The notes under the pieces were generated by a model, which was not told where the DNA came from, did no database searches, and saw only the letters and a program-made list of their open reading frames with translations. Shown piece after piece: positions 10,308-40,520 of a stretch of DNA of 64,000 bases (position 1 is the stretch's first letter; the number at the start of each line of letters is the position of its first letter). Source of the DNA: Lunularia cruciata (taxonomy: Eukaryota; Streptophyta; Marchantiopsida; Lunulariales; Lunulariaceae); assembly GCA_948567375.1 (NCBI GenBank), contig OX419762.1, positions 4,532,001-4,596,000 of the forward strand, written 5' to 3'. A program made the position numbers and the translations under genes.

Positions 10308-10860
10308 CTATCTAAAATATGCTACAAAGTATGAGAATGAGAGTGGTACCCCCTGACGCCTAACATGATAAGCTCTCGCGCACTCCATGAAAAATGTGTC
10401 AAATGCCGTGTCCATTGCTCCATATAACTCCAAGTTTAGAGGAACAAAGAGGTGACCTTGCTGCATGCCCGTATACTTGGAGACCTTGCAACCTGCTGCT
10501 GCACTCGCCCCCCATCCAGGGGGATGGGTAATCACTCCCTCCAAAACTGTATCTCACGTAGGGTCCATAACCACTACATCCACTACTATCACCTGATCAT
10601 CTTGGACCAAGTATAAGTCTGCCTTGACACGTGTTGTCTGCAAAGCATACGAATGCTCCCTCCAAGCCAAGTATACACTCTCTCGTGCCATAGCAAACAC
10701 TATATCTCTAATGGCATCATGGGTAGCTATCGTCTGTCCTCCAAAAGGACACCGTGTCATGTGGACCGCTGCTGCATCTAATGTAGAACCACACTCACAA
10801 GTGAGTAATGAAGATGCAGATGGGTGAACCAAACCTAGGCAAAACCTCATTGCTGTAGAG
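10308..10860 (-). pseudogene. CCHC finger and restriction-like endonuclease-like C-terminus of LINE copy i
   Basis: The frame 10850-10554 contains CECGSTLDAAAVHMTRC, a C-x-C...H-x3-C finger. It is followed by IATHDAIRDIVFAMARE and then RVKADLYLVQDDQ with VIVVDVVVMDPT. The order finger, then R/H helix, then (P/A)D about 12 residues before a hydrophobic D-x-V strand, resembles the PD-(D/E)xK restriction-like endonuclease of R2/CRE/Hero-type LINEs, which nicks target DNA for target-primed reverse transcription. After a stop, 10544-10308 continues with GVITHPPGWGASAAAGCKVSKY and ends in a conserved tail also seen in copy ii. The finger is plain to see. The endonuclease assignment is inference from motif spacing. 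Confidence 0.55.
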
Positions 10861-11012
10861 AAAGTAGCTAGTGCGAGTCGGAAAGCCCTAATGCATGGTC
10901 AAGCTAGGATCCAAGAGCCTGCACCCTTGCCGGAGCAAGAGCAAAGACGTGCTCTAGTAGCCTGAGGAATGGACAAGTCGACTAAGAGAGAATGTAGCGT
11001 ATGCTCACACTG

Positions 11013-12616
11013 TCACTCCATCAAGGAAGACTGTAAACCTCTAGTCCAATCTGACGATAGTGAAGCAAAAGGTGGAAAATCCTCTTGTGCTCGTGGAGAT
11101 AGACTATCTCTTGTCTGCCGCAATAATAGCTGGAGAGAAAAGGATCCTCCCTCCACTTTTGTCATATAAGTCTCCAAAACCAGCATATCAGCAACCACAA
11201 AATGAGAGGAAAGTAGGGGTGCTGAGAGAGTCCAACTACCCAAAAACACAATAGGTGCCGTCTCCTCCATAGAAAGCAAGCCAACCCCACCACATGAGAT
11301 TGGTAGAGCTGTCTGTCTATGTGCCAAATCCCTTGTCACACACTCAAAAGTCCTCGGTCCAATAATATCACCAAAGACTCCCATAATCCTCCTATCAAAT
11401 GCTCTCAGACGTGATAGGAAGGACGGTGAGGAGGGAACTATACGAATGAGGTAGGATGGTTGATGAGCAATATTGGAAGAGAGTATACCAAATGCCACAT
11501 GTGGATCTCCTAGTAATGGAAGGTCTTCTACATGGAGAACATCCTCTACAAGGGCAACGTCTAAGAAGCGTGTGACAAAATCCTCCGATCCTACTGGCAC
11601 TCCAAAAACATGAAGTCCATCTGTGGATGTGATACAACCCTTTGGAAGCTCAAGGTGGGGAGTGATACCTAAAGGGGACCATGTCCTACACTTTGATACC
11701 TTGACTCTCAAGCCTACTAGATGTAGCTCGGTAGTCAAGTAGTCAAAGGCCTGCCTAATCTGATCTACAGGGCCTATGATGTGTGTATCATTTGCCAAGG
11801 AGGGAAATACACAACTTGACATGGCCAAAGTAGTAGATAGGAGAGCTCTAAAGTGAGCCATGGCAAATAAGTGCCCCCCTAAAGGATCTCCCTGACGTGT
11901 ACCAATAGCAGACTCCAAGACGATGACTTCTTCTTGTGAACCACCATGCTGGTAGTAAAGGGAAGCCAGAGAGCCATATAAAGACCGCACAAAAGGAATG
12001 AGACTCGCCAAGGATCCACCAGCCTCCCTAAGCTCTCTAAAGATGGATGCACATCCACCTATAGAACTACCTACTCCGGATGGATATCTAGGAGTGCTCT
12101 AATGCCTAGAGATATAGCCTCACATCGTCTCGGTGTAGCTACTCCAAACTGATGTGGACTAAGGTGATGTCGAAAGTGAGAATGATGTTGAAGGACAATG
12201 GTACGACTGACCAAATGCAAAAAGATCTCTCCAATAGCAATCGGTCTAATGCTTCCCATGTCCTTCTCCATTGCGAGAAGTCGACTAGCACCTAACACCC
12301 GACTAACAGACATAGGAATGTCTCCTCTCGCTATTGCTGCAACCACCTGAAACAACTCGGTAAAACCACTAGAAGGATCATCTACTTGGAAGCAATCTCT
12401 AAGGTGCTCATAAACCATCCCTGATAAGCCTCCTGAGGAAAAGCGAGGGGCAATGCATAATGCTTGTGCAAATAGCAACCTATCAAGACATAAAGGCTGC
12501 TCAGGTTGATAATCTAAGACCTCTAGTGGTAGTCCCTCTATTGCTATAGGATGTAGTGAGCGTAGGGAAGAGATGGTCTCATCAATAAGACTTGCTATAG
12601 ATAAAGGGTGTAGCAC
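11013..12616 (-). pseudogene. Reverse-transcriptase domain of LINE copy i
   Basis: The RT copies element RNA into DNA at the insertion site. 12616-12071 has the N-terminal RT blocks (EVLDYQPEQPLCLDRLLFAQ, GGLSGMVYEHL, IRPIAIGEIFLHLV). 12011-11013 has IFRELREAGGSLASLIPFV, motif B (GTRQGDPLGG) and motif C as FPSLANDTHIIG. The expected catalytic pair here is DD, as copy ii has (LADDT), so copy i has Asn for the first Asp. Motif A (VDVENAYNKVS in copy ii) is damaged at about 12012-12070, where a short segment is missing and the frame changes. Both lesions suggest a dead enzyme. The thumb/connector continues through ERTFECVTRD-like sequence to about 11013. Confidence 0.8.
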
Positions 12617-13125: not shown

Positions 13126-13690
13126 AATTGAATAGTTTATTTTATTTATTTTGTAATTTTTAATTGTATTTATATTTTAAAATAATTTGAGTAAAAATTA
13201 TAAATATATTTAAGGTTTAATATATATTTTTTTTTTAATTTTATTGATATCTAGATGGTAAATTGTATAAATATTATGAATATTTTTAGAATTTAAATAA
13301 TTCTTTGGTTATAAATGATTGATTGAAAATTTTAATGTTTAAATATGGATTTTTAATTGATTTATATGGTAATTAATTAAAAAAAATCAAATAAAAATTA
13401 TAAAAATATAAAATTTTAAAATTTTTAGGATTTAAAAATTTTATATTCCTTCAAGAGAATTGAAATATGAATAGTATTGTAACTATGTGGAAATATGGAG
13501 AAGAACATCATGTTATTATCATTATTCTTGTGCTAGCCCAGATTACATATTTCTAAAGTGAATTGAAATATGGATGATATTACAACTATGTGAAAATATG
13601 GAGAAGAGCATCATGTGTTATTATCATTATTCTTGTACTAACCATGGTTACGCTTTTCCATGTGATGTTTCTAAAGCGACTCATGATACA
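13126..13690. other. AT-rich spacer with a tandem duplication
   Basis: There is no gene here. 13130-13450 is very AT-rich with no open frame of note. About 13455-13560 and 13561-13665 are two diverged direct copies (unit about 105 bp) sharing GAATTGAAATATG, AACTATGTG-AAATATGGAGAAGA and CATCATG-TTATTATCATTATT. The spacer separates the 5' ends of the two head-to-head LINE copies. Confidence 0.6.
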
Positions 13691-14348
13691 TTATACTTGA
13701 TGTGTCATTGACTTATTGACTTTTTACCTCGGAAAAGATAAAGACCCATGTGGGAAGGATACATAAGGATTATGATTGGACCACTTGGGATGCTCATGTG
13801 AGGTGAATGATCACATTGACAACAACGATATTCGAGATCAAGCACACTTCTTCTATCCTTTTCTCAATAGTCCCAATAATATAGATCAAATCATGAGAGT
13901 GGGTAGCATAATAGGTTGTATTTTGGAGTTATTTGAGACTAGTTTTTCATGTCCTCGTTTATTCCTTAGACTACCTCGTACATTCCATGATGAGGCTAGA
14001 TAGACTTCTCACCTACCACATGATCATTTGGCATGTGATCCCTTGGACAAGTTAGCATGGTTTTTATTCCTCATACTCCATTGATGGTGCCTTTGTTATG
14101 CTAGAGAGGGACGTGCGGGGCATAAAGAGGTTGTTGTTAGATTTAGTTGATTGCAAATAGAAGATTGTGCTACCCTACAAGAGGATTCGGTTAGAGCTAT
14201 ATATTTTAGGAGACAAATTCTACCATAGGATATCATAGAGTCCACTCTATTACAATAGTGTAGAACAGCGGGTCAAGCATGAGAGTTTAGTAGAGCAACA
14301 TGAGTGCTACACTCTTTGTCTATGGCTAGTCTTACTGATGAGACTATA
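13691..14348 (+). mobile_element. LINE copy ii, 5' part (upstream of Gypsy-A insertion)
   Basis: Plus-strand frames match the N-terminal portion of copy i: LFETSFSCPRLFLRLPRTFHDEAR at about 13930-14003, and at about 14305-14345 LHSLSMASLTDETI, equivalent to LHPLSIASLIDETI in copy i. The match stops abruptly at 14348 and resumes at 38076 with the next residues of the same protein, showing a 23.7 kb insertion. The last five bases (CTATA, 14344-14348) nearly match the five after the insertion (CTATC, 38076-38080). Stops make this copy inactive. Confidence 0.8.
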
Positions 14349-14827
14349 TATAAAAGATTGAGACTAAGGAGAGAAATAGGAGAATGGAAGACTATAGTGT
14401 GAGATCATATTGAGATACTTGAATGAGTGAAACTATGATTGCTAAGCATGAGCTTGGGCTTTGGAATTTATAGAGAGCATACAAGAAGTTTCTTAAATTC
14501 ACCTTCTTGGAGTGCAAGCCAAGTTAATGAGAAGCTTCTCAAAAAGTTTTCTTTTAGAAATTATTTATTTGGCATACAAGCTAAGCTAGTTGGAAGCTAC
14601 CCAAGAAGCTTTCTTTTAGAAATTATCTACTTGGGATGTAAGCTAAGCTAGCCGAGAAGCTTCCTAAGAAGCTTCCTTCTAGAATTTGCCACTTGGCATG
14701 CACATTACCCAATACTTGGAAAGTACCTAGTAGCTTCCTATATACTTTTAGAATATTCTAGGCTAATTTGGTCTATTTGCTATTTTTTAGCCTTGACTAA
14801 CTCATTAGTAAACTCCATATTGTTATA
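14349..14827 (-). repeat. 3' LTR of Gypsy-A
   Basis: The LTR is bounded by degenerate TGTAAAAG...GTTACA ends and rich in GAAGCTTCTAGAAGC-type palindromic modules shared with the LTRs of Gypsy-C and at 55.0 kb. A CT-rich block (CTCCCACCGC on plus, purine tract on minus) follows it, as expected of the polypurine tract next to a 3' LTR. Confidence 0.75.
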
Positions 14828-17800
14828 TATTCTCCCACCGCTAGTTGGTGTCCTCGGCACCATTGAAATTTCAAATTTTTGGATTTTTTTTTGGAGATGA
14901 GAAAAAGGTTTCCAAGTGGCATCATGAAGATGATACCATTTCTAGAGGACTTTGTACTCTATGTGTTGTATGTATGTTGTATGCCTTGTTGAATGTGGGA
15001 ACGTGCATGGATACGATCAACTTCATACTCTTCATTATCATTAATAGAGACGGGAAGAGAAGGAGGTTGGAGATGATAGGAAAAAAGAAGATGGATTAAG
15101 AGCAAAGGGTTTCAATTTGGAAATATGAAAAATAGAGTGGATACACATATGACAAGGCAAGGCAAGTCAATAAAAAACAAGAGAAATGATTTGGGTGACA
15201 TCAAAGGGTCTTATCCAATTAGGAGCAAGTTTATGGACTTGGGTATCAAATGGGAAGGGTAGATACTATAAGAGAGTGTGACCTTATCATCAAGTTGAAA
15301 AGTAATATCAAAACAATGGTGGTCCACATATTGTTTTTGATGATTCTTAGAAACAAGGAGATGAGATTTTGCTTGTTGGAGGGATTAAGATATGGTGGTC
15401 AAGAAGGTAGAAGTATGAGGGATATGAGATGGGGAGGAGCAAGAAAGTAATTTGGAACAAGTGTGGCTTAAGGAAGAAAAGAGAGAATCTAGTGCTTGCA
15501 TGTTTGAAATTATTGTATGCAAACTCAATAGTTTCAAGACATTTATCCCAATTGGTATGGTGAACATTGATGAAGGCATAAAGTATATACTCCAAGGTGA
15601 AATTTTCATGTTTGGTTTGTCTATCGATTTGAGGATGATAGGTTGTGGACAAAGCAAGCTTGATGCTAAGTATCTAGAAAAGTGTCTACCAAAATTGTCC
15701 AATGAATCAAGGATCATAGTCAAAGATGAGTACATGAGGTATCCTATAACAATATGGAGTTTAACGATGAAGTTAGTAGGGCTAACAAAGTAGCAAATAA
15801 GACAAATTAGCCTAGAATATTCTAGAAGTATCTAGGAAGTTTCTTGGGAAGCTTCCTGGCTAGCTTAGCTTGCACCCCAAGTAGATAGCTTCTAGAAGCT
15901 TCCAACTAGTTAAATTTACATGCCAAGTAAGCGGCTTCTAGAAGGAAGCTTCTTGAGAAGCTTCTCAATTAACTTGGCTTGCACTCCAAGAAAGTATATC
16001 AAGGAAGCTTCTCAAGAGCCTTGTATGATCCCTATAAATACAAGAGCCAAAGCTCATGCTAGGGCTTTGGAGTTTTTCCTCATTCAAGTGTCCCAATGTG
16101 AGCTTCCATTCTCCTATTTCTCTCCTCGGTCTTGGTCTTTTACACATCCCATAATACTTGAAAACATTATCAAAGTAGATCTATAATAATGTTGGAGCAT
16201 TCATGATATCAAAGGTTGGTAGCAAATAGATTTGCTTACTAAGCTTATCCACAAACACCACAATTTTTGTATGACCTTGCTTTGTCTTGGGGTAAGGATG
16301 TGATGAGATCTAAGTTTACATGGTTCCCATCAAGTAGATAGAATGGAGAGTGGATAAAAGAGTCCACTTGGTTTCTGGTTGCTGGCCTTGTTGTGTTGGT
16401 AGCTTTCAAAAGATTGGACAAACTTTTAAACATTTTATGCCTTTTTTGGCAACCACTATTGATGTTGGAATGTACCCAAGTTCTTGTCCACACCCATGTG
16501 ACCAACAATTGGTAAGTCATGGGCTTCTTGAAGTTGCAAAAGTTAGAAATCACCCTTGGCTAGAATATAGATCTTGTTCTCATAGAATAGAAGTTCTTTG
16601 AAGTAGAAGGTGTTGTGCTCCTTGTTGCTTGCTGCAAGATGACCTTGTACTACCTAAAAGAAGGGATCTTGTTGTAAAGTTATCCTAAACTTAATTTGGA
16701 CTTTGGAGTCGACTGACACCATCTTAATTGTTGTTGTGATGAGAAGAAGAGTCTTCAAATCAAGTTGTTGTGATAGGGCATTGGGGATGACATGGAACCG
16801 ATTGGGTTTGTACTCAAGTTTGATGTCAAATAATTGTAGTTATTCCTTCCGTTGATGATGTCTACTCTTCATGTGTTCCAAATTTAATATCTACAATAAG
16901 GGTTTTAAATTGGTTTATATGATCACTTGTTTCTCCAAGAGGAAATGCTCCATACCTTGATGGCATATACCAATGCTAGTTGTTCTTGATCTTGAGTAGA
17001 GTAATTTCTTTTTGTAGTATTTAGTCAACAAGACACGAAGGCAATAGGATGTAACACATCTAAGAATTCTTGTTGCAATAGAGCTCCAATTACAAAGTTA
17101 AAAGCATCAAAATCAACCACACAAGGTAGTTGAGTGTCATATGGTTGAAGAATGGGTCTTGAAGACACCATATGTTTTAGCTTTTGGAATGCTTCTCTTT
17201 GTTTGGTGGTCAATTAAGAGCTTAAGTTCTTCCCTAAGAGGTCAGTCAATGGTGTGGTCACATGAGCATAGTAGTGGATGAATCGTCAAAAAAAACTTGC
17301 CAATCCATTAAATACCCATACTTCTATAGTATCCTTTGTAGTATGAAGTATCAATAATGACCTTGATTTTCTCCTCTTCTATCTTGATCCCCTCTGATGA
17401 GATCTTGTTACCCAAGAAGGTAACTTCCTTCTGCCAAAAGGCACACTTTGACTTCTTGTAGTAAAACTTCCATTGACATAGTCATCTTAGGACTTCTCGC
17501 ATGTGATTTACATGTTTTATGTGCCTTGCTATAGATTAAAATATCATTGAAGAACACCACCATGTATTGATCCAATAGTTCACTCCAACACCCAATGCAT
17601 CTAATCCATGAAGGCTGTTGGAGCATTAGTGAGCTCAAAAGGCAAAACTCTCTACTCAAAATACCCATACCTTATGCAGAAGGTAGTCTTTTGCACATCT
17701 TCTTTATCAATGGGAATTTACCAATAGTCATTTTGGAGATCCAACTTGGAGAAGTACTGTGCTCCACTCAATTGATCAAGCAAGTCATCAATTTGAGGCA

Positions 17801-18987
17801 AGGGATATGCATTCTTTTTTATTTGTTTATTGAGGCCACAATAATCAATACCAAAGCAAAGTCCTCCATTCTTCTTTGGAACAAATAGTATTAGTGTTCT
17901 CCAAGGAGATGTATTATATCATATGAAATCGTTTTCCAACAACTCTATCAATATTATTCAAAGCTCATCCAACTCTTTTGGTGAGAGCAAATAGATTGGT
18001 CTATTCATTGGAGTACTTCTTGGCAATAACTTAATCTTGAAGTGCAGACCACGGTCAAAGGGTAATCCCTTTGTTAGATCATCCAAAAACACATTTGAAA
18101 ACTCCTGGACTATTTGATCAACCATGTCTTGGTTAGGCTTTTGATCCTCCTTAGTTCCTCCATACATAATCAGCTTGATCCATATCATAAAAATAGACTT
18201 ATCTCCCTCCAAAGCTTGCCCTATGGTTGTTTTATTGACAAACTTCCCATCTTGGGACTTATCTTCCTTCAAAGCTTACCCTATTGTTGCTTCATCAACA
18301 AACTTCTATCTTTGGACTAACTATTCTTAGGTGTCTTACTCAAGGGTGCCAAACAACCTAATTGGAAATTCTTTCCTTGATGTTGGATTTGAATTTGTTG
18401 TTAGTTCCAATCAAATTGAACCTTATGATGTTCAAGCCAAAGTAGACCTATAATGACATCTTAGTGTAGAGTTACCATTACAAACCTCATACACTCCAAA
18501 TACTCTTTTCTAATCTTAGATGCAATAGGATGGGAGGTAGAGAATGCAGAACCTTTTCTAACATTTGCCATCATCAATCTACTTCCAATTATTGGCTTGA
18601 TAGGAATATTTAATTTCTTTGCTAATTGCATAAACATACAATTCTTTAAATTTCCAAAATCAACTAAAATCCTACTACCATGATCAAAGATCGTACCTTA
18701 CAAGTGAAGCAAACTTGCATAGGTCAAGCTTTCAATCCCATTGAAAAAAATCAAGTTCTCAATAGGCAGCTCAAAATCTCCTATTAGGATTCCTTGTTTC
18801 CTTGATCATTCCGCTCCACAAACTCCATGAGGGTGATTTGTCAAGGTTCCCCATTCTTGAGTGGACATTTCACAATTTGATGTCCAATTTGGTAACAATA
18901 AAACTAACCACCATTTTGTCATAATCTTTCTTGATTCGCTATGCCAATGGGTCTTTGTTCAATGACATCATTGATTGATGTCGGTAT
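14828..18987 (-). pseudogene. Gypsy-A pol remnants (integrase, RT, protease), broken
   Basis: Read on the minus strand from right to left: a protease/gag junction area (about 18700-18400), a segment similar to the pre-RT spacer of Gypsy-C (about 18270-17960), RT (about 17890-17400), RNase H (about 17213-17025) and integrase core (about 16550-15350, interrupted by a solo LTR). Each block aligns by eye with the better preserved Gypsy-C at 30.8-34.1 kb. The region is broken many times and is a fossil. Confidence 0.75.
15745..16144 (+). repeat. Solo LTR of the Gypsy-A/C family inside Gypsy-A, opposite orientation
   Basis: The stretch runs from TATAACAATATGG to GGTCTTTTACA, the reverse complement of the flanking family LTRs, and is rich in AGCTTCTAGAAGC modules. 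Flanks are TATCC (15740-15744) and CATCC (16145-16149). Gypsy-C has a single CATCC at the corresponding place in its integrase region, so this is a target-site duplication with one change. No internal element sequence accompanies it, so it is a solo LTR left by recombination. Confidence 0.8.
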
Positions 18988-19479
18988 TGTCAAGAAAATA
19001 GTCCGCATGTACTATTGATGCCATTTGGTGTGAAGGATTTGTTTACTTGTGTTGCAATGACTTAGGGTTTTTTTTAGTTATTGTGTCTTTGGAATACCTT
19101 TCATGCCGTTGTGAAGTCAGAAGTTCTTTTATATTTCATAAGCTTGAAGGTTCAGAAATGATACATAAAATCAAGAGTATCTATTAGTTTGCATGGAAAC
19201 TGGAGTTCTTTTGAGTCACACAAACTCGGGGCTTAAATTTATATTACACGAGCTCAAGACTTTTTTTTTATGTTACTGGGGTCTTATGAGTATTTTCCAT
19301 TTTTAGTGGCAGAGCAAGAGAAAAGGAGAAAGCTTCGAGTGATCAAGAGGGTTTAAGGAATGTTTTGTGAGCCTTTGGGAATACAGGCCACTAAAAGGTT
19401 GGGAAGAGTTTTGAGGAATCAAGAGGGCTTAAGGTTTGTTTTCTTGAAGGAAAAATGGAAGGAGAGTGATTGACAATGG

Positions 19480-19870
19480 AAGGTTGGATAGAGAGGGACA
19501 TTTTTTGAATATAAGGGCTTGATTGATAGAGGAAGGCTAGACAAAGAGACATTTCCAAATGTAAGGGCTTGATTGACAATGGAAGGCCGTAAAGAGAAAG
19601 ACATTTTTTAATATAAGGGCTTGCGAGGAGGTTGACAGCTGGACAAAGAGACATTTCCAAATGTAAGGGCTTGATTGATAGTGGAAGGTTGGACAGAGAA
19701 AGGCATTTTTTTAATGTAAGGGCTTGAGAGGAGGTTGAAGGCTAGACAAAGAGAGTACATTTTCAAATGTAAGGGCTTGATTGACAGTGGAAGGCTGGAT
19801 AGAGAAGGGCATTTTTGAATGTAAGGGATTGAGAGAAAGGTTGAAAGTTGGACAAAGAGAGTGCATTTCA
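19480..19870 (+). repeat. Minisatellite array 1 inside left LTR of B (unit about 60 bp)
   Basis: About six units of the form GACATTTCCAAATGTAAGGG, CTTGATTGACAATGGAAGG or CTTGAGAGGAGGTTGAAGG, then CTGGACAAAGA. Two unit types alternate. The equivalent array in the right LTR lies at about 28200-28600 with a similar unit order, so the array predates insertion. Confidence 0.75.
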
Positions 19871-20830
19871 CAGGTATGCCTTGAGAGTGTGCTGCCTTGA
19901 GAGGGGAAATTTTTGCAGGACTGGGGTTTGCGCACAAAGGAGGAGGAGAGGAGAAGTTTTTCATGAAGGAGAAGTCTGGATAGGAGCCAGCCAAAGACTA
20001 ATTTTTGCAGGTATCCCTTGAGAGTGTGCTGCCTTAAGAGAGGAATTTTTGCATCTATGCCTTGAGAGTGTGCTGCCTTGAGAGAGAAATTTTTGAACTG
20101 CCTTGAGAGTGTGATGCCCTGAGAGGGGAAAATTTTGCAGGACTAGGGTTTGCTCATGAAGGAGCAAGAGAGGAGAGGTTTGTTCATGAAGGAGAAGTCT
20201 AGACAGGAGAAAGTTTCCCAAGACTAGGGGTTTGCTCAGGGAGGAGCAAGAGAGGAGATGTTTCTCATGAAGGAGAAGTCTGGACAGGAGCAGGCCAGCG
20301 AGGAATTTTTACAGGTATGCCTTGAGAGTGTGATGCCTTAATAGAGGAATTTTTGTAGGTATGCCTTGAGAGAGGAATTTTTGCACGTACGCCTTGAGAG
20401 TGTGTTGTCTTGAGAGGGGAAAATTTTGCAGGACTAGGGTTTGCTCACAAAGGAGCAGGAGAGGAGTAGTTTCTTCATGAAGGAGAAGTTTGGACATGAG
20501 AAATTTGCAGGACTAGGGGTTTGCTTAGGAAGGAGCATGAGAGGAGAGGTTTTTCATGAAGGAGAAGTCTGGACAGGAGCAGGCCAGAGAGGAATTTTTG
20601 CAGGTATGCCTTGAGAGAGGAATTTTTGCAGGTATGCCTTAAGAGTGTGCTGCCTTGAGAGGGGAAATTTTTGCATGGCTAGGGTTTGCTTGTGAAAGAG
20701 CAAGAGAGGAGAGGTTTTTTCATGAAAGAGAAGTCTGGACACGAGAAAATTTTGCATGACTAGGGTTTGCTGAGAGTGTTGGAAGGAGAGAATGTGTTGC
20801 CACAAGAGGAGGGGGTTTTTGCAGGAAGTG
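19870..20830 (+). repeat. Minisatellite array 2 inside left LTR of B
   Basis: Higher-order units are built from GGTATGCCTTGAGAGTGTGC, TGCCTTGAGAGGGGAAATTT, TTGCAGGACTAGGGTTTGCT, CATGAAGGAGCAAGAGAGGA and CATGAAGGAGAAGTCTGGAC. They recur four to five times with gains and losses of sub-units. The right LTR has the same array at about 28600-29350 with a different number of sub-units, as expected from replication slippage or unequal exchange after insertion. Confidence 0.75.
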
Positions 20831-27600: not shown

Positions 27601-27719
27601 CATGATAGCAGCTTGGAGGATGAACCAGATGAGGCTATTGGAGAAGGTTGAAAATGATCACCTAGAACCTTGTTGGTGCAGACCAAAGGCTGCACAAGAT
27701 TGGTAAGGGTGAATATCAT

Positions 27720-30170
27720 TGAGAAAAGACCCCGCATGTACTATTGATGCCATTTGGTTTGAAGGATTTGTTTTCTTGCATTGCAATGCCTTTGGGTTTT
27801 TTTTAGTTATTGTGTCTCTAGAATAACTTTCATGCCGTTGTGAAGTCAGAAGTTCTTTTATATTTCATAAGCTTGAAGGTTTGGAAATGATGCATAAACT
27901 TAGGAGTATCTATTAGTTTGCATGAAAACGGGAGTTCTTTTGAGAACCACCAACTCGGGGCTTAAATTTATATTATACGAGCTCAAGACTTTTGTTTTAT
28001 GTTACTGGGGTCTTAGGAGTATTTTCCATTTTTAGTGGCAGAGCAAGAAAAAAGGAGAAAGCTTCAAGTGATCAAGAGGGTTTAAAGAATGTTTTGTGAG
28101 CCTTTGGGGATACAAGCCAATAAAAGGTTGGGAAGAGTTTTGAGTGATCAGGAGGGCTTAAATTTTGTTTTCTTGAAGGAAGAATGGAGGGAGAGTGATT
28201 GACAATGGAAGGCGGGATAGAGAAGGGCATTTTTTTGAATATAAGAGCTTGATTGATAATGGAAGGCTAGATAGAGAGACATTTCCAAATGTAAGGGCTT
28301 GATTGACAATGGAAGGCCGTACATAGAAAGGCATTTTCAAATGTAAGGGCTTGAGAGGAGGTTGAAGGCTAGACAAAGAGACATTTCCGAATGTAAGGGC
28401 TTGATTGACAATGGAAGGCTGGACAAAGAAAGTCATTTTTTTAATGTAAGGGCTTGAGAGGAGGTTGAAGGCTAGACAGAGAGAGTACATTTTCAAATGT
28501 AAGGGCTTGATTGACAGTGGAAGGTTGGATAGAGAAGGGCATTTTTTAATGTAAGGGCTTGAGAGAAAGGTTGAAAGTTGGACAAAGAGAGTGCATTTCA
28601 CACGTATGCCTTGAGAGTGTGCTGCCTTAAGAGGGGAATTTTTTGCAAGAGTAGGGTTTGCTCGCAAAGGAGCATGAGAGGAGAGGTTTCTCATGAAGGA
28701 GAAGTCTGGACAGGAGCACGCTAGAGAGGAATTTTTGTAGGTATCCCTTGAGAGTGTGCTGCCTTAAGAGAGAAGTTTTTGTAGGTATGCCTTGAGAATG
28801 TGCTACCTTGAGAGAGAAATTTTTGCAGGTATGCCTTGAGAGGGGAAAATTTTGCAGGACTAGGGTCTGCTCATGAAGGAGCAGGAGAGGAGAGGTTTTT
28901 TCATGAAGGAGAAGTCTAGACAGGAGAAAGTTTCCCATGACTAGGGGTTTGCTTAGGAAGGAGCAGGAGAGGAGAGGTTTTTCATGAAGGAGAAGTCTGG
29001 ACAGGAGCAGGCCAAAGAGGAATTTTTGCAAGTATGCCTTGAGAGTATGTTGCCTTAATAATAGAGGAACTTTTGCAGGTATGCCTTGAGAGTGTGCTGC
29101 CTTGAGAGAGGAATTTTTGCACGTATGCCTTGAGAGTGTGCTGCCTTGAGAGGGGAAATTTTTGCAAGGCTAGGGTTTGCTCACAAAGGAGCAAGAAAGG
29201 AGAGGTTTTTCATGAAAGAGAAGTCTGGACACAAGAAAAATTTTCCGGACTAGGGTTTGCTGAGAGTGCTAGAAGGAGAGAATGTGTTACCAAGAGAGGA
29301 GAGGATTTTTGTAGGAAGTGTTGCCATGAGAGTGTATGGAGGTTTTTTCATGAAGGAGGAGTCTGGACTGAGAAGGAGAGATAGGAGTTGGACAGAGACT
29401 ATTTTTTGAATGTTGGAAGGAGAGTGTGAAGTTTGGACAGAAATTTCAAAGTGGCCTGACTTGTGTCAAACAGAAGGAGAGAAGAAGTTCCATGTGCTTT
29501 TGAGACAAGAATGAGAAACCCCAAGGGAGAATTTGCTGATCAGTGGAGACTTGGAGGGGATGTCAAGTGGAGACACTGCAGATAGGGAGATGAAGAGTTG
29601 TAAGGGATAGGAATTAGGACCAGGCTGATTCCTTTCTTTCCTTTATATGCTTGGTTAGTCAAAGTGCTTTGATGTGAACACTATTTAGTCAGGAGCTGTT
29701 TGAATTTTCTCACAGGATTTATAAACTAGGAAGACTTGGTATGGTGATGGAAATGAAATTCCTCATGAGTGAATGCATGTGTATTTGACAAGTGAATAGT
29801 GATAAGGAAAGAACATATTTTTGGAGTACTCAAACCAGCCTACATAGGTGAATCAGATCATTGAACAAGTTTCCCATGTTTAAGTTGGTCGCATAACCTG
29901 TGGACTAATCCACAAATCCCACCAGATCTGTTTCTATCAGACCAAACTAGACCATTACACCAAAAACCCCACCAAACCTAAGAATGATAGACCAAGAACA
30001 AAGTCAAGAATGAAAAAATGGGAACAATAGCCAAGGGAACAAGAAGTGCAGAAATAATCTAAAGCCTTATGCAAATATCCGTTGGGAAGACCCAAAAAAA
30101 TGGCAAACAAGTTTCCAAGAAAGAGTTATTGTCACTCAACCAGAAAATAGCACTAGTGTCTGACTACAAG
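27720..30170 (+). repeat. Right (3') LTR of element B, first part
   Basis: It starts TGAGAAAAGACCCCGCATGT and follows the left LTR through the same two arrays (about 28200-28600 and 28600-29350) and the unique 3' third to GACTACAAG at 30170, where Gypsy-C interrupts it. Confidence 0.8.
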
Positions 30171-30595
30171 TGTAAAAGACCAAATCCAAGGAGAGAAATA
30201 GGAGAATGGAAACTCACATTGGGACACTTGAATGAGGGAAAACTCTCAATCCTAGCATGAGCTTTGGCTTTGGTATTTATAGGTAGAATACAAGGCCCTT
30301 GAGAAGCTTCTCAAGAAGTTTACTCAAGCCGCTTTCTTAGAGTGCAAGCCAAGTTAACTAGGAAGCCTCTCAAGAAGCTTCCTTCTAGAAGCCGCCTACT
30401 TGGCATGCAAGCTAAACTAGTTGGAAGCTTCTAGAAGCTTCCTTCTAGAAGCTACTTACTTGAGGTGCAAGCTAAGCTAGCCAAGAAGCTTCCCAAGAAG
30501 CGTCCTAGATACTTCCGGAATATTCTAGGCTAATTTGTCCTATGTGCTACTTTGTAAGCCCGACTAACTTTGTCGCTAAACTCCATATTGTTACA
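30171..30595 (-). repeat. 3' LTR of Gypsy-C
   Basis: Ends TGTAAAAGACC...GTTACA. It is about 60 bp longer than its partner at 36152, with an extra AAGCTTCTAGAAGCTTCC module in the palindrome-rich middle. Confidence 0.9.
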
Positions 30596-30844
30596 TATTC
30601 CCCCGCCGCTAGTTGGTGACGTCCTTGTTGCTAGTGAGGCTTGGAATTCCTGGATGGCCGTCTGTGCATTTTGGAGATGAGAAAGAGGTTCCCATGTGGC
30701 ATCATGAAGGGAATACCCTTTCCAAAGGACCTGATACTTTGTATGTTGGTGATGGCCTCGTTGAATATGGAGACGCGCAAGGATACTATCAACTTTGTAC
30801 TCCTCATGAGCCTTGATAGGGACAGGAAGAGGGGGAGGTTGGAC

Positions 30845-33800
30845 TCAAGAGGAAAAGGAAGAGGGGTTAGGAACAAAGGGTTTTAACTTGGAAACATGAA
30901 AGATAGGATGGATACGCATGTGACAAGGCAATGCAAGTTGATAAGCAACAAGAGAGAAAATTTGGGTGATATCAAAGGGTCCTATCCAATTAGGTGCAAG
31001 TTTACGAACTTGGGTATCAAGTGGGAGAGGAAGGTTACTAGAGGATAGAATGAATTTATCACCAACTTCAAAGGTGAGATCACGATGATGGTGGTCCGCA
31101 TATTGTTTTTGGCGATTTTGAGCAACAAGGAGGTGAGACTTAGCTTGTTGGAGAGATTGGGATATAGTCGTCAAGAATGTGGAAGTATGAGGAACCTGAG
31201 ATGGAGGGGGAGCAAGAAGAGAATCTAGAACAAGCGGATCTTGGCCAAAATTGAGAAAAAAAAGGAGAAAATCTGGTGTTTGCATGTTTGGAATTGTTGT
31301 AGGCAAATTCTGCAACTACAAGACATTCATCCCAATTGGTATGGTAGACATTGACAAACGCACATAATATATTCTCCAATGTATGATTTGCACGTTTGGT
31401 TTGTCCATTAGTTTGAGGATGATAGGCCGTGGACAAAGCAAGCTTGGTGCAGAGTATCTGGAACAGTGCTTGCCAAAACTTCTCGGTAAATCAAGGATCA
31501 AGGTCGGAGATGAGTACACGTGGCATCCCATGATGCTTGAAGACATTGTCAAAGTAGATTTGCGCTAAGGTTGGAGCATCCATGGTATCACAAATTGGTA
31601 TCAAGTGGATATGCTTACTAAGCTTATCCACAAACACCGCGATTGCGGTCTATCCTTGTTTTGTCTTTGGCAAGGATGTGATGAGATTCAAGCTCACATG
31701 CTCCCAACAAGCGGATGGAATGGAAAGTGGTTGAAGGAGTCTACTCGGCTTTTGGTTGCAGGCCTTGTTACATTGGCAGCTCTCACACGATAAGATAAAT
31801 TCTCAAACATCTGGTGTCATGTTGGGCCACCACCATTGATGTTGGAGGATACCCGAGGTCTTGTCCACACCCATGTGACCAGCGATGGGTAGATCATGGG
31901 CTTCTTGAAGGCGCACAAGTTGAAGATCCCCTTTGGCTGGAACATAGATCCGGTCCGCATGGAATAGAAGGCCTTCCTTGAAGGAGAAGATGTTGTACTC
32001 CTTATCACCTATTGTTAGATGACCATGTACCATTTGGAAGAAGGGATCTTGTTGTAGAGCTAACCAAAACTCTTTATGGATCTTGGGGTCAATTGACACC
32101 GTCGTAATTGTTGCCACGATGAGAGGAAGAGACTTCAAATCAGGTCGTCATGATAGAGCATCAGGGATGACATGGAACCAACTTGGTTTGTACTCAAGTT
32201 TGATGTCAAACAATTGGAGTTGCTCTTCCCATTGATGATGTCGACTCTTCATGTGCTCCAGGTGTAAGGTCTGCAACAATGGCTTGTGATCAATTTGCAT
32301 GATCACTTGTTTCCCCATGAGATAATGCCTCCATACCTTATGGCATATACCATTTCAAGTTGTTCCTGATCTCAAGTAGAGTAATTTCTTTCAGCTATAT
32401 TTAGTTGGCAAAACACAAAGGCAATGGGATGTAATCCATCTGGGAATTCCTATTGCAACATAGCTCCAATTGCAAAGTTAGAAGCATCAAAATCAACCAC
32501 ACAAGGTAGTTGAGGATCATATGGTTGAAGAATGGGTCTTGAAGACACCATATGCTTTAACTTCTAGAATGCTTCTTCATGCTTGGTGTTCCATTGGAAG
32601 CTTGAGTTCTTTCCTAAGAGGTCAATCAATGGTGCAGCCACATGAGCATAATAGTGGATGAACCACCGGAAAAAACTGGCCAATCCATTGAATGCACGTA
32701 CTTCTGTAGCATCCTTCGGGGTAGGAAAATCAATAATGGCCTTGATCTTCTCTTCTTCCATCTTGATCCCCTCTGATGAGATCTTATGACCCAAGAAGGT
32801 AACCTCCTTCTGCCAAAAGGCACACTTTGACTTCTTGTAGTAAAATTTCCATTGCCATAGTCGTCTTAGGACTTCTCGCACATGATTCACGTGCTCTGCC
32901 TCTATCTTGCTATAGATTAAGATATCATCCAAGAACACCACCATGGACCAATCCAATAGTCCATCCAACATCTGATGCATCTGATCCATGAAGATTGTTG
33001 GAGCATTAGTGAGTCCAAAATGTAAAACTCTCCACTCAAAATGCCCATACCTTGTGCAAAAGGTAATCTTTTGCACATCCTCTCTATCAATTGGAATTTG
33101 AAAATAGCCGCTAAAAAGATCCAACTTGGAAAAGTAACGTGCTCCACTTAGTTGATCAAGAAATTCATTGATCCGAGGTAAGGGATATGCATTCTTCACG
33201 GTTTGCTTATTAAGCCCACGGTAATCATTACAAAAATGAAGTCCTCCATCCTTCTTTGGAACAAATAGTACTAGTGCTCCCCAAGGAGAGGTACTATGTC
33301 ATATGAAGTCCTTCTCCAACAACTCTGTAAGTGTTGTTTGCAACTCCTCCAACTCTTTTGGTGAGAGCTGATAGATTGGTCTACTCACTGAAGTACTCCT
33401 TAGCAATAACTTGATCTTGAAAGGCATACCTCAATCAGAGGGTAATCCCCTTGGAAAATCCTCCAAAAACACGTCCACAAACTCCTGAACTATCCAATCA
33501 ACCATTGCTTGATGAGGCTCTTGGCCTTCCTCAGATTTTTCTTGTGCCATTGGCTTGATCCACACCGCAAATACATACTTATCTTCCTCCAAAGTTTGCT
33601 CTATGGCTGCTTTACTAACAAACTTCCCTTCCATGGACTCATCTCTCTTCCAAGCTTGCTCCATGGTTGCCATCTTGGCAAACTTCCCATCTTGGGACTC
33701 ATCTTCCTTCAAGGCTCGCTCTATGGCTACCTTCTCGACAAACTTCCCATCTTGGGACTGACTATTCTTAGGTGTCTTACTCAGAGGTCCCAGACAACCT

Positions 33801-34110
33801 AATAGGAATTTCCTACCTTGGTGTTGTACTTGAATTTGTCATCAGGTCCAATCAAATTGAACCTTATGATGTTCAAGCCAAGGTAGACCCAGAATGATAT
33901 CATAGTGTAGAGGTGCCACTACAAACCTCATACACTCCAAATACTCCTTTCCAATCTTGAAGGTAACAGGATGCGAGGTGCGGAATGCAGAACCCTTTCT
34001 ATCATCCCCCATCATCAAACTACTTCCAATCACTAGCTTGATAGGAATACCCAATTCCTTTGCTACTTGCATATACATACAATTCTCTGAACTTCCAGAA
34101 TCAACCAAAA
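30845..34110 (-). pseudogene. Gypsy-C pol region
   Basis: Minus-strand domains from right to left: aspartic protease (34108-33842: MVDSGSSENCMY, YDIILGLPWLEHH), an acidic spacer (33712-33431), RT (33199-32564: ARYFSKLDLFSGYFQI, FLDDILIYSKIEAEH, CAFWQKEVTFLGH), RNase H (about 32500-32200), integrase with H2C2 finger (about 31960-31800: EAHDLPIAGHMGVDKT) and core (31436-31140: STAYHPQTNGQTKRAN), and a C-terminal GPF/chromo-like part (31315-30845: KLAPNWIGPFDI). This is the clearest Ty3/Gypsy pol in the window. Some breaks are present. Confidence 0.85.
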
Positions 34111-34682
34111 TCTTACAACCTCAATTAGATATTGTACCTTGCAAGTGAAACAAACTTGCATAAGGTCAAGCCTTCAATCCCATTGGAACTAATCAAGCTC
34201 CTAGTAGGCGGCTCAAAATCTCCTACTGGGATTCCTTGTTTCCTTGATCATTTTGCTCCACAACCTCCACCTAGGCAACTTGTCAAGGTCGTCCATTCTT
34301 GAGTGGACATTCAGCAATGCGATGCCCTATTTGGCAACAATAAAAACAACCACTATTTTGTCACAATTTCTCTCTATCTGCCATGCCAAGTGGTCTTTGT
34401 TGAATGGCATCAATCTCCATGGGTGCTGGCTCCTCCACTTGTGTGTAGTGTATTGGTAGGCTCTATGGAGGTCGAGGTCGAGACCAAGTTGTTGCCACCA
34501 AGGAATCAAAATGTTTGACCAACCGCATGGCTTCCTCCAAGTGTTGTGGCTCTTGCATGGTTACCTCTAATTTGGTTCTTGCCTTCAAGCCCCTCACAAA
34601 TCAATCCAGAGCTTCACCTTCCAATATATTTGGATTTTACATGATGGTGTTTTGAAATTGTGTGATGTAACTTCTTACAGAG

Positions 34683-35428
34683 TGTAATACCAAGGGTTAG
34701 CCATATGATCTAGATGTTAAATTCGGTTTGGTAACTTCTAGAATGATGTTATACATGATGGTCAAAATAGATCAAATAGAAGTATCACCAAAAGAGTACT
34801 TCTACTAATAGGGCAAAAACCAAAATAGACTTGAGAACCTTAGAACCAATAGCTAGACATATGATTTAAAGGTGAGAATTGGTTTGGTAATATCTGGAAG
34901 GATGTTACACATGATGGAGTAAACAGATCATAAAGAGGTATCACCAAAAGGAGACTTCTACTAATAGAGTAGGAACCGAAATATGCCTAAAATCTTTGAA
35001 GGCAATTTCGGAGGCCTAAACGGATGAATTAGGCCTCAAAAATGTGCAAATTCCCCCCCCCCCTTAAAACATAAGAAAGGCTGGCCTTTCCTCCCCCTTG
35101 CTTTGTCTCGTTGAGAGCTTTCCAACGAGACCTTACTCACGTGATTCTGAGATTCCTACATGAAGATTTCCTAACAGATTCCCTCCGGTCAAAGCTTGTT
35201 TGACCAACCAGATAGGACCTAGACCAGACAAGTCACCCATCCAAGTAAGTAATCCAAGGGTGGAGCTTGCTGACATGTAACATATCTGTGTCCCTAATCC
35301 TATGGTGGAGCTTCCTTGGAGGAGATCCTCTTTGTCTATATAATAAAGAGAAGGTGCTCCCTTGGAGCATCAAATGTTTGAGTGTGCAATCTGTGTCTTC
35401 TCTCTTCTCTTGTCTTTGGAGTATTACA
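34683..35428 (+). repeat. Solo LTR D (Gypsy-F family) inside the gag of Gypsy-C
   Basis: The sequence runs from TGTAATACC to GTATTACA, the palindromic ends of the Gypsy-F family seen at 47.7-55.0 kb. It is flanked by perfect 5-bp direct repeats CAGAG (34678-34682 and 35429-35433). It contains a partial tandem duplication (units at about 34697-34850 and 34851-34990) and a C10-11 run near 35055. No internal sequence is present, so it is a solo LTR. It is the innermost level of the nest. Confidence 0.9.
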
Positions 35429-36151
35429 CAGAGCCAATCTGTTTCAACTTTGCCAACTTATCCCATGCAACTCCTGTAGCATTTATAGCTTAGAATCAAC
35501 TAATTATTGTGCTCTTGAATTTTGCCCATGTCAAGACTGGTGTAACAATTTGTTGTTCCGCTCGCTCCACTTGGAATCTCCACCATAGTTTTGCTACTCC
35601 ATCCAACTGGCTAGAAGCCAAGAGAATCTATTTTTGCTTGTCTTGTAGATTGGTAGCTTCAAAATAACATTCACAATCAAACACAAAATTCTCCACTGCA
35701 TCCAGAAGATTCTTGCCTTCAAATACCTTGGGTTTAGGGAATCTGATCCAATCTTCTCCTTCTCGAATTGGTACTCTCTCCACATGCTCTTGTCGTCAAA
35801 GATCTTGTTCATCTAATAATTGAGTAAGTGTGCTTGATTTGTTGCTGCATAGCAAAGATAACATCAGGTATTGCCACCATGGTTGCTACTCTATCACACC
35901 ACTCTCAATCTATCTAATTTATTAACACATAAAAACAGCATGTCCACCATTCTCCATAAGTTACAACCGGAAGCACCAAGGGTTCCTTAGATATGGTGAT
36001 CATATGCAGAAAATCTTGTCCAAAGTGCAAGGTGATGAATTGTGTGAAATGATGCTTGGGTAGTACTTGGATGCAAAAATCCCAATGGTTTGGTGGAAGT
36101 GTATTTGGTGGTCCATAAATTCCATCCATCCCATTCCTGCTTTGATACCAA

Positions 36152-36516
36152 TGTAAAAGACCGAATCCAAGAAGAGAAATAGGAGAATGGAAACTCACAT
36201 TGGGACACTTGAATGAGGGAAAACTTCCAATCCTAGCATGAGCTTTGGCTTTGGTATTTATAGGTAGCATACAAGGCCCTTGAGAAGCTTCTCAAGAAGT
36301 TTTCTCAAGCCGCTTTCTTAGAGTGCAAGCCAAGTTAACTAGGGCACTTCTCAAGAAGCTTCCTTCTAGAAGCTACCTACTTGGCATGCAAGCTAAGCTA
36401 GTCGAGAAGCTTTCCAAGAAGCTTCCTAGATACTCCTGGAATATTTGAAGCTAATTTGTCTTATGTGCTACTTCGTAAGCCCAACTAACTTTGTCATTAA
36501 ACTCCATATTGTTACA
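36152..36516 (-). repeat. 5' LTR of Gypsy-C
   Basis: Ends TGTAAAAGACC...GTTACA. It lies directly next to the tRNA-Met-type primer site and is followed by the target duplication ACAAG. Confidence 0.9.
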
Positions 36517-36521
36517 ACAAG

Positions 36522-36611
36522 AGAACTACCAAGTCTTTGACAAACAAGACAGCCTAAGCATAAGCAGTTAGGTGCCCGGTGCAATCTCAAGACCTTACAA
36601 TCCCCATGACA
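36522..36611 (+). repeat. Right (3') LTR of element B, last 90 bp after Gypsy-C
   Basis: The sequence resumes with AGAACTACCAAGTCTTTGAC directly after the duplicated ACAAG and ends CCCCATGACA. It matches 21691-21780 of the left LTR. Together with 27720-30170 it completes the LTR. Confidence 0.8.
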
Positions 36612-37580
36612 CCGGGTCCTCCACCCATGTGTAATGTGTTGATAGGTTTTGTAAAGGTCAAGGTTGAGACCAAGTTGTTGCAATCAAAGAGTCAAAGCAC
36701 TCAACCAATTGTATGGCTTCCTCCAATGATATGGCTTTTGCATAATCACTTCCAATTTAGTTCATGACTTCAAGCCTCTCACAAATTGATCCAAAGCTTC
36801 ACCATCCAATATAGATAGAATTAGCATGATAATATTTTGGAATTACATGATAAGTTTCTTACTAAACCAATTTGTTTCAACTCTACCAACTTATCTTGTG
36901 TGGCTTGTATGGCATTTATTGCTTGGAGTTGCCCAATTATTGCACTCTTGAATTCTTCTCATGTCAAGATTGGTGCAACAAACTGCGGTTCTGCTTGCTC
37001 TACTTAGAATTATCACCATAGTTTTGCCACTCCATCTAATAGCTTGAAGTTAAGAGAATTTTTTTCCATTCATATTGAAGATTTGTAGCCTCAAAATAAA
37101 GTGCATAGTCAAATACAAAATTCTCCACTACACTCAGGAGATTCTTGCCTTCAAGTACCTTGGGTTTTGGAAATTAGATTTGTCCTTCTCCTTCTTGAAA
37201 TGGTGCTCTCTCTACATGCTCTTGTCATTGATGGTCTCATTCTTCCTACAAAAAAGTATGGTGCTCAATTTGTTGTTGCATAGCAAAGATAACTTTGGGC
37301 ATTGCCGCCATGGCTACTACTCTATCCAACTAACTACAATTTATCTAAATAAACATGGAGATATAGCACGTCCACCATTCTCCATAAGTTATAATCAGAA
37401 GTACCAAGGGTTCATCAAACAAGGTGATTGTATTCAAAAAATTCTACCCAAAGCATGAAGTAATGAATTGCATGAAATGATGTGTGGATAGTACATTGAC
37501 ACAAAAATCCCAATGGTTTGGCAAAAATAGATTTGGTGGTCCATAGATTACATCCATCTCATTCTTGCTCTAATACCAAA
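36612..37580 (-). pseudogene. Gypsy-A gag and leader, continuation right of element B
   Basis: The sequence aligns by eye with the gag of Gypsy-C at about 34430-36150. Landmarks are GGTCCTCCACC, the AAGGTCAAGGTTGAGACCAAG block and the ...TTGCCACTCCATC... block. It runs to a Met-tRNA-type primer site (about 37569-37580) next to the 5' LTR. It is the missing right side of Gypsy-A. Broken. Confidence 0.7.
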
Positions 37581-38075
37581 GTTAAAAGACTAAGACCAAG
37601 GAGATAAATAAAAGAATAGAATACTAGAGTGTGGATCAAATTGGGACACTTGAATGAGTGAAACTTTGAATGCCTAGCATGAGCTTAGGTTTTGGTATTT
37701 ATAAGGAGCAAACAAGGCTCTTGAGAAGCTTCTCAACTTTCTCAAGCTGCCTTCTTGGAGTGCAAGCCAAGTTAAACGAGAAGCTTCTCACTTAACTTCT
37801 TCTAGAAATTATCTACTTGGCATACAAGCTAAGCTAGTTCAAAATTTCCCAAGAAGTTTCCTTCTAGAAGCTACCTACTTGGGGTGCAAGCTAAGCTATC
37901 CAAGAAACTCCCAAGAAGTTTCTTCCTAGAAGTTACCACTTGGCATGCACGTTACACTATAATTGGAATGTACCAAGTAGCTTCTTAGATACTTCTAGAA
38001 TAATCTAGGCTAATATGGTCTATTTGCTCCTTCATTAGCCTTGACTAACTCATCAATCAACTCCATATTGTTACA
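37581..38075 (-). repeat. 5' LTR of Gypsy-A
   Basis: This family LTR (AAAAGACTAAGACCAAGG ... CATATTGTTACA) has the same AGCTTCT-rich middle. It ends at 38075 exactly where LINE copy ii resumes with CTATC. Confidence 0.8.
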
Positions 38076-40520
38076 CTATCTCTTCCTTATGCTCACTACA
38101 TCCTATGACATGAGAGGGAGTACCATTAGAGGTCTTAGATTATCAACTTGAGCAGCTTTTATGTCTTAATAGGTTTCTTTTTGCACAAGTGTTGTGCATT
38201 GCTCCTTGTCTCTCCTTAGGAGGATTGTCAAGGATGGTATATGAGCATCTTAGATATTGCTTCTAGATAGATGATCCTTCTAGTGGACTTATCAAGTTGT
38301 TTCAAGTGGTTGTAACATTAGCAATGGGAGATATTCCTATGTCAATTAATTAAGTGTTAAGAGCTAGTCAACTTCTTGTGATAGAGAAGGGCATAAAGGG
38401 CATTAGACAGATTGTTATTGGAGAGATGTTTTTATGTTTGGTTAGCTGCACCATTGTCCTTGAGCATCTATCTCACTTTCAAGAGTACCTCAGTCCACAT
38501 CAATGTAGAGTAACTACACTTGGAGGTTCAAAGACTATTTCCCTAAGCATCAAGGCACTCCTTAATATCCATCTAAGGTAATTTGTCTTATAGGTGGATG
38601 TTGAGAATGCTTATAATAAAGTCTCTTGGGCATCCCTCTTTAGAGAGCTTAGAGAGACTGGTGGATCCTTGGAAAGTCTCATTCCCTTTGTGCAATTGTT
38701 CTATAGTGCTCCTACTTCCTTTTACTACCAGCATGGGTGGTCATAGGAAGGAGTCACTGTCTTGGAATCAATTGTTGGTACACGACAATGAGATCCTTTA
38801 GGAGGGCCTTTGTTTGTCATGTCTCACTTTAGAGCTCTCTTATCTACTACTTGGGCCATGTTAGGTTGTAAATTTCCCTCCTTAGCAGATGATACACAAT
38901 TTGTAGGCCTTGTAGATCAGATTAGGCAAGCCTTTGATCACTTGATTGCCAAGCTACGTCTTGTAGGGTTGAGAGTCAAGGTGTCAAAGTGCAAAGCATG
39001 GTCCCCTTCAAGTATCCCTTCCCACCTTGAACTTCATGAGGGATCTGTCACATCTTTAGATGGACTACATATTCTTGGAGGGCCAATAGGATCCAAGGAT
39101 TTGGTCACATACTTCTTAGATGTTGCCCTTGCAGAGGATATTCTCCATTAGGATGACCTTCCTTGACTAGGAGATCCGCATGTGGCTTTTGGTATACTCT
39201 CTTCTAGTATTGCCTATCCATCAACTTACCTTCTTTGCATGGTTCTCCCCTTCCTTGACTTTCCTATCATGTCTAAGAGCTTTTGATAGGAGGATCATGG
39301 GAGTCTTTGGTGATATCATCGGACCAAGGACATTTGAGTGTGTGACGGGGGATGGGCACATACATAGGCATCTCTATTGATCTCATGTGGAAGGATAGGC
39401 TTATTACCTATAGAGGAGATGTCACTCATAGTATTTTTGAGTAGTTATGCCTTCTTGGCATCCCTACTTTCCTCTTGTTTTGTGGTTGCTGATAGGCTAG
39501 TTTTGGGGACTTATGTGACTGAGGTGGAGGAGGGATCCTTTTCTCTCCATTTTTTATTTTGCCAAACAAAAGATGGTCTATCTCCATGGGCATGTGAGGA
39601 CCTTCCATCCTTTGCTTCACTACCATCAAATTGGACTAGAGGTTTGTAGTCTTCCTTGATGGAGCAATAGTGTCAGCATATGCTACATTCTCTCTTAGTT
39701 GACTTGTCCATTCCTTGGGCCACTAGATTATGTCTTTGCTCTTGTTCCGATAAGGGTGCAAGCTCTTGGATCCTAGCTTGATTGTGCATTAGGGCATTTT
39801 GACTTGCACTAACCACTTTCTCTACAACGATGAGGTTCCACCTAGGTTTGATCCACTCGTTTGCATTTTTGTTACTCACTTGTGAGTGTGGTTCTACATT
39901 AGATGCAATAGTGGTCCATATGACACAATGTCCTTATGGAGGAAAGATGATAGCTACCCATGATGCTATCAAGGATATAGTGTTTGCTATTGCATGAGAG
40001 AGTGGATACCTTGCTTGGAAGGAGCGTTCATATTCTTTGCAGACAACATGTGTCAGAACAGACTTATACTTGGTTTGAGATGATCAGGTGACAATGGCGG
40101 ATATTATGGTTACAAACCCTATGCATGATGCAATTTTGGAGGGAGTGATTATTCATCCTCCTTGATGGGCGGCAAGTGGTGCTGTAACATGCAAGGTCTC
40201 CAAGTATAGGGGTATGCATTGAGGTCACCACTTTCTTCCTCTGGCCTTGGAGTTATATGGAGTGATGCACATGGCTTTTAATATATTTGTCAAGGAGTGC
40301 ACAATAGCTTATCACATTAGTTGTCAGGAATACCTCTCGCACTCTCATACTTTGTAATATACTTTAGATATTGTGTGTCCATTGTTCTACTGAGAGCATT
40401 GGTTGGTGCAATCCACAAGTGAATAATCACTCTAGGTGATGTTTCTTTGAATGCTCTGGTAGTTTGTAGACCTTGCGACTTGCATAGCTCAAATATCATA
40501 GATGTGGTAGGGTCAATTTC
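38076..40520 (+). mobile_element. LINE copy ii, 3' part (RT, finger, endonuclease-like end)
   Basis: It continues the protein cut at 14348. 38076-38580 has RT N-terminal blocks (PLEVLDYQLEQ, GGLSRMVYEHL-type). About 38595-38670 has motif A, VDVENAYNKVSWASLFREL. About 38780-38900 has motif B (DPLGGPLF, preceded by a stop) and motif C, FPSLADDTQFVG, with both Asp retained. 39100-39650 matches the connector of copy i (RAFDRRIMGVFGDIIGPRTF). About 39880-40340 has the CECG/H/C finger (HMTQCPYGGKMIATHDAI) and the endonuclease-like end. Several stops and frame changes make it inactive, yet it preserves motif A, which copy i has lost. Confidence 0.8.

Follow-up and report, generated by a model that had tools for sequence, protein, structure and literature searches.

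Does a plant genome carry a long interspersed nuclear element (LINE) of the restriction-like endonuclease (RLE) type? Plant LINEs are regarded as apurinic/apyrimidinic (AP)-type elements, and the RLE type is better known from animals and protists. The question arises from a 64,000-nucleotide stretch of the Lunularia cruciata genome (contig OX419762.1, positions 4,532,001 to 4,596,000), which we refer to as the window and which contains several copies of one LINE family. A preliminary description of the window had placed this family among the R2/CRE/Hero-type LINEs. We conclude that the family is very probably a non-long terminal repeat (non-LTR) retrotransposon of the RLE type in a plant; the earlier placement holds for the broad RLE group and not for membership of any named clade. 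The window is located on contig C12; the assembly totals 566 Mb, of which eight large contigs account for 558 Mb. Genes of the streptophyte families SAM_LFY (E=1.9e-35) and AUX_IAA (E=3.9e-24) are present in the assembly, and neither family was detected in any of 14 control genomes.

The window has two main copies of the element, copy i and copy A, the 3' part of which is the copy ii of the preliminary description. A genome search with the open reading frame (ORF) of copy i as query gave 113 scored matches among 13751 initial candidates. We fetched 34 copies, 14 of them picked for long open frames and 20 taken from the upper list, not strictly by rank, and an intact genomic copy, L015, served as the reference for element coordinates. 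The element is about 3.73 kb long and has a single ORF, which follows a leader of about 480 bp before the ATG and encodes 1055 amino acids (aa). The 13 other copies among the first 14 were colinear with L015 across the 3.73 kb with 98.6-99.8% identity, and their sequences diverged beyond both element ends, with small differences among the first bases. The 3' untranslated region extends about 85 bp from the stop codon to the element end and ends in T6, in most copies as ...CGCGGTCGCCTTTTTT, and no poly(A) tail was found at the 3' ends of the copies compared. Open frames of about 1100 aa were found in many genomic copies. In this selected sample the ORF was uninterrupted in 18 of 34 copies, 17 encoding 1055 aa and one encoding 1101 aa, and the 17 intact 1055-aa copies had a mutual ORF identity of 97.6-99.97%. 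Many copies look intact and young. Because of this identity and a crude pN/pS (nonsynonymous to synonymous polymorphism) of 0.63 among the 17 copies, we conclude that the family amplified recently under mild constraint.

The order of domains in the LINE protein is a putative N-terminal CCHH finger, a reverse transcriptase (RT), a CCHC-like knuckle and a putative C-terminal endonuclease. The N-terminus reads CPVCHRRFTSQGVKTHVGRMH, in which a CCHH pattern (C18-C21-H33-H38) was spotted by eye; C18, C21 and H38 are invariant in 17/17 intact copies, and no Pfam finger scored above its cut-off in this region. When the 1055 aa were searched against Pfam up to E=10, RVT_1 (residues 335-569, E=6.6e-15) was the sole match above cut-off and two further matches were far below theirs. 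There was no match to an AP-type endonuclease, to any endonuclease family or to RNase H. As a positive control, Exo_endo_phos was readily detected in a different LINE from this genome. In addition, the 14 copies chosen for long frames had no second frame of at least 150 aa within the element. The earlier observation that no N-terminal AP-type endonuclease is visible was therefore confirmed in full-length copies.

The evidence for an RLE comes from the C-terminus. Against a profile made from three R2 sequences across the knuckle and the first half of the RLE, the C-terminus of the LINE protein scored 14.8 bits, compared with 6.7 bits for the best of 5000 shuffles. In the available text of PMC5678591, the catalytic lysine of the LINE RLE is the first K of a KX2KY motif, and a conserved RH opens the first helix of the RLE of R2Bm. 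Both D895-x12-D908 and K939-V-S-K942-Y943 are retained in all 17 intact copies of the family, and RIATH (R857, H861) is found at the place of the RI-x-RH of R2. The D...D and KX2KY motifs are present in both window copies, although in copy A a stop codon separates the Asp residues, and other dead copies have partly lost the endonuclease motifs (for example KVSKN in L028, KDFKY in L010). These results suggest that the C-terminus is a nuclease of the PD-(D/E)xK-like kind, carrying the KX2KY lysine typical of LINEs, in agreement with the endonuclease similarity proposed in the preliminary description.

We compared the RT with those of known elements. In a PDB search with the whole LINE protein, the best matches were the R2 proteins 9nl2, 9nl3 and 9dou (E=1.2e-8 to 3.6e-7). 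With the RT region alone, R2 proteins again came first (1.3e-7), followed by group II intron RTs (0.014), and human L1 was absent from the matches up to E=10. The family's RT scored 42.9 bits against an R2 RT profile and 19.6 bits against an AP-type RT profile, which consisted of human L1 and the genome's own AP-type LINE. A group II RT scored 47.0 bits against the AP-type profile, and R2 and AP-type LINEs score 93-141 bits against each other. Because of the scores with the two profiles, we conclude that the RT is not L1-like, yet is no close relative of R2. In a seven-sequence RT tree with weak support (bootstrap 55-78), the branch of the family was the longest, at about two substitutions per site, and the family was kept apart from R2. 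We conclude that the RT belongs to a deep or fast-evolving lineage. NCBIfam gave one match, to a group II intron RT model and far below its cut-off. No relatives were found in non-plant collections of viral contigs (four pattern matches with a 350-aa RT piece) or genome contigs (20 pattern matches with the whole protein), and a non-plant plasmid collection gave no matches. A search of the genome for a canonical R2, with an R2 RT piece as query, gave best 147 of 2086 candidates that were only 31-33% identical, and most of these fall in the AP-type LINE clusters described below.

Insertion behavior was assessed by comparing 90 bases 5' and 50 bases 3' of each of the 34 copies for common words. 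Half of the copies (17/34) had words of 9-13 bp common to both ends, which represent target duplications, whereas only 12 of 1122 control pairs with swapped flanks (1.1%) shared a word of at least 9. The duplicated words and the flanks vary between copies, no shared target such as U2 or ribosomal DNA (rDNA) was seen in the copies inspected, and the distribution of the 113 best-scoring copies over eight chromosomes is even (Kolmogorov-Smirnov p=0.67). We therefore conclude that insertions are dispersed and that site specificity of the R2 kind is absent. Among the 18 copies with words of at least 8, there was a weak preference for A or G at the base before the duplication (16/18) and for T at its third base (15/18). 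Heads of 0-53 extra bases separate the target duplication from the aligned element start in the 34 copies (L009-L042), and an 11-base head, GGTCCGGCTGG, is common to four of them. Some heads contain repeats of a AGGAGCTGCGGG-like unit. The heads look as though the 5' ends vary or as though additional synthesis took place at the 5' junction. In copy A (13484-13640, 40600-40689), L020, L024 and L028, part of either the 5' start or the 3' tail is duplicated over about 70-113 bp, and in L024 the extra 3' tail sits immediately upstream of the copy.

The family covers 7546 of the 64000 bases of the window (11.8%), compared with 0 in a shuffled window. Of the 108,887 flanking bases sampled around the 34 fetched copies, 10,812 (9.9%) derive from the family, with extra pieces at 21 of the 34 loci. 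By this rough estimate the family makes up about a tenth of the genome; the estimate is rough because the window and the flanks are non-random samples.

Several observations weigh against assigning the family to the RLE type. The R2 RT profile gives the family's RT a lower score than human L1 (114.3 bits), and one close to that of a group II intron RT (36.9 bits). Bombyx R2 (8gh6, 8ibw) was, like human L1, absent from the PDB matches, with the whole protein and with the RT alone. D504 of the RT catalytic pair was lost in 2 of the 17 intact copies, and the last Cys of the knuckle is missing in one. The knuckle is at the expected place between RT and nuclease, but its spacing is CX1CX9HX3C rather than the CX2-3CX7-8HX4C published for RLE LINEs, and the PD motif reads AD, with A replacing P. 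The order of RT, knuckle and RLE given in the preliminary description holds, with a knuckle and an AD that depart from the textbook type. The C-terminal 272 aa alone found five matches in PDB up to E=10 and no R2 chain, so the link of the C-terminus to R2 needs the profile. AlphaFold models built from shallow alignments of 13 and 11 rows were unusable (mean predicted local distance difference test score of 27.8 for the full length and 31.7 for the C-terminus), and as a result the nuclease fold is only inferred. Finally, 16 of the 34 copies lack a common end word of at least 8, and the pN/pS indicates mild constraint only.

Could the family instead be an L1- or RTE-type LINE that has lost its AP-type endonuclease, with a C-terminus that resembles an RLE by a chance strand pattern? 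The majority of plant LINEs are L1 or RTE, and such a loss would fit both the lack of an R2 match for the C-terminus alone and the failed structure prediction. We consider it very unlikely, because an intact copy has no AP-type domain in a genome where one was detected in another LINE, the C-terminus exceeded 5000 of 5000 shuffles, its two motifs are retained in every intact copy, and the R2 profile gives the RT 42.9 bits where the AP-type profile gives it only 19.6. L1 itself was ruled out by the missing N-terminal AP-type endonuclease and by the RT scores, and RTE was set aside on anatomy, again by the missing N-terminal enzyme. A LINE-type RT is common to the family, plant L1 and this genome's AP-type LINE (L047), but L047 has a separate first ORF and, preceding its RT, an AP-type endonuclease, and the family has neither. 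Dualen/RandI elements also bring an RLE into the green lineage, and Dualen occurs in green algae. According to the available part of PMC4640811, Dualen encodes an AP-type endonuclease in addition to its RLE. An element with both enzymes is hardly credible here, as the leader is only about 480 bp and the 1055 aa lack any AP-type or RNase H match in Pfam at E<=10.

A narrower form of the RLE assignment is that the family belongs to a named clade (CRE, R4, NeSL/Utopia or HERO) and that its RT became remote through fast evolution. This is plausible, though short of probable. The long RT branch could mask such a kinship, but the duplicated words and flanks differ between copies and show no shared target (U2, rDNA). 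Utopia is known from Amoebozoa, SAR and Opisthokonta. Utopia/NeSL elements are of the RLE type, and the family differs from them in having no common target among the copies examined and no RNase H match. HERO, which we liken to the family by description only, is also of the RLE type, and many of its families lack target specificity in the portion of PMC4640811 available. The R2 clade was ruled out by the RT (42.9 bits and a separate position in the weakly supported tree) and by the lack of 28S rDNA targeting. The family resembles R2 in having one ORF and the succession of RT, knuckle and C-terminal RLE with D...D and KX2KY; it differs in its very distant RT, which scores below human L1 on the same profile, in its dispersed insertion, in the A for P and in the knuckle spacing. 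The RT scores do not place the family in a named RLE clade, because its R2 score is below that of human L1 and near that of a group II intron RT. Taken together, we conclude that the family fits best among the RLE-type LINEs taken broadly, with a mode of working to match. Its single ORF would most likely be translated into a 1055-aa protein that starts with a putative CCHH finger and continues with an RT, a zinc knuckle and a putative PD-(D/E)xK-like nuclease with the KX2KY lysine. Catalysis, target-primed synthesis and autonomy are, like the nuclease fold, steps that we infer.

The pieces of the family in the window are listed in Table 1. The preliminary description had reported RT motifs shared by copies i and ii. 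The features do exist across the two, but no single copy has all the RT motifs: copy ii contains VDVENAYNKVS and LADDT but has the variant RQ*DPLGG, and copy i contains RQGDPLGG and ADLYL...VIVVDVVV but has the variant LANDT. Pfam alone missed the 361-aa fragment of copy i, in which RVT_1 is recognized through the intact homologue. The + strand pieces had been described as separate copies, and we conclude that they are one older insertion split by LTR-retrotransposon-like material, because the halves meet at element 1176-1180, a 5-bp duplication, ACTAT, flanks the insert on both sides (14343-14347 and 38075-38079), and repeats resembling LTRs, 81% identical, lie just inside the borders (14351-14825 and 37583-38073). 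The two main pieces of copy A are 77% and 80% identical to L015. The claim of at least four copies in 64 kb holds when the older fragments on the - strand are counted.

Table 1. Pieces of the RLE-type LINE family in the window (window positions) and clusters of the AP-type LINE (Mb on the contig named).
Feature	Position	Strand	Details
Copy i	12997-10052	-	element 756-3729, 5'-truncated, 92.5% nucleotide identity to L015; blastn + tblastn
Copy i, 361-aa open frame	11013..12098	-	RT part, FRELREAGG through RQGDPLGG and LANDT
Copy i, CCHC-like knuckle	10749..10799	-	CECG...HMTRC, C-x1-C-x9-H-x3-C; placed via gapless tblastn block
Copy i, endonuclease core	10473..10619	-	D-x12-D + KVSKY (KX2KY)
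Copy A, 5' part	13484..14347	+	start partly duplicated
Copy A, 3' part (copy ii)	38075..40689	+	3' tail partly duplicated from 40621
Copy A, knuckle + endonuclease core	39881..40207	+	CECG..., TDLYLV*DDQVTMADIMV, KVSKY, with stop codons
Material splitting copy A	14348..38074	.	23.7 kb, LTR-retrotransposon-like
3'-terminal fragment	8430..8492	-	element 3667-3729
Old fragment	56843..57182	-	element 3293-3627
Old fragment in three pieces	62361..63329	-	element 2515-3192
Two old 3' tails	63701..64000	-	reaching window edge
AP-type LINE clusters	C1 46.28-46.50, C2 33.19-34.29, C6 25.25-25.65, C7 46.54-46.89		
AP-type LINE clusters	C8 39.42-39.66, C10 20.29-20.76, C11 25.98-26.45, C12 25.24-25.61		

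Within the insert, Gypsy-like RT frames were seen by eye, the presumed borders of the terminal repeats are not TG...CA, and a second pair of repeated regions is present (18993-21195 and 27722-29689). About 600 bp past copy A, on the + strand, lies a candidate host gene with a 779-codon frame and an NAD/FAD-binding amine-oxidase-like domain (41309-43648). The region 48116-51175 contains direct repeats at a distance of about 1920 bp from each other; they comprise three blocks, 231-300 bp long and 84-86% alike, and have no LINE match.

The AP-type LINE of the same genome, in which 1077-aa open frames are frequent, was represented by the best 146 of 568 candidates for PF03372. It is mainly confined to a single cluster on each large chromosome (3.6 Mb altogether); a few copies lie outside the clusters and many others occur on small unplaced contigs. 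Part of this LINE is arranged in tandem units at a regular spacing (10,598 bp on C1). L047, the only copy viewed closely, has a 283-aa first ORF followed by the AP-type endonuclease and RT. None of the 113 best-scoring RLE copies is inside these clusters. Clusters of the LINEs Zepp and ZeppL are centromeric in green algae, as reported in the available text of PMC11005252, and by analogy the AP-type LINE clusters are candidate centromeres.

No RLE LINE in a plant was found in the titles and abstract openings of the open-access papers listed, which does not imply absence from print, and proteins with a similar RQGDPLGG...ADDTHIVGP motif presumably occur in mosses and charophyte algae. We suggest tentatively, as a possibility that falls somewhat below an even chance, that the family is the first recognized member of a separate deep lineage of RLE LINEs in land plants, without the usual site specificity, making up roughly a tenth of the genome beside an AP-type LINE that is mainly in one cluster per chromosome. 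RLE LINEs are regarded as ancient and mostly site-specific in the available text of PMC4640811. If our reading is true, the presence in a plant of an RLE LINE that is young, dispersed and high in copy number would be relevant to the timing of the replacement of the RLE by the AP-type enzyme, and also to the ways in which elements acquire or lose site specificity. R2 is under development for gene insertion, according to the available text of PMC12222951, and the many natural copies with open frames would provide a compact one-ORF system for comparison with R2.

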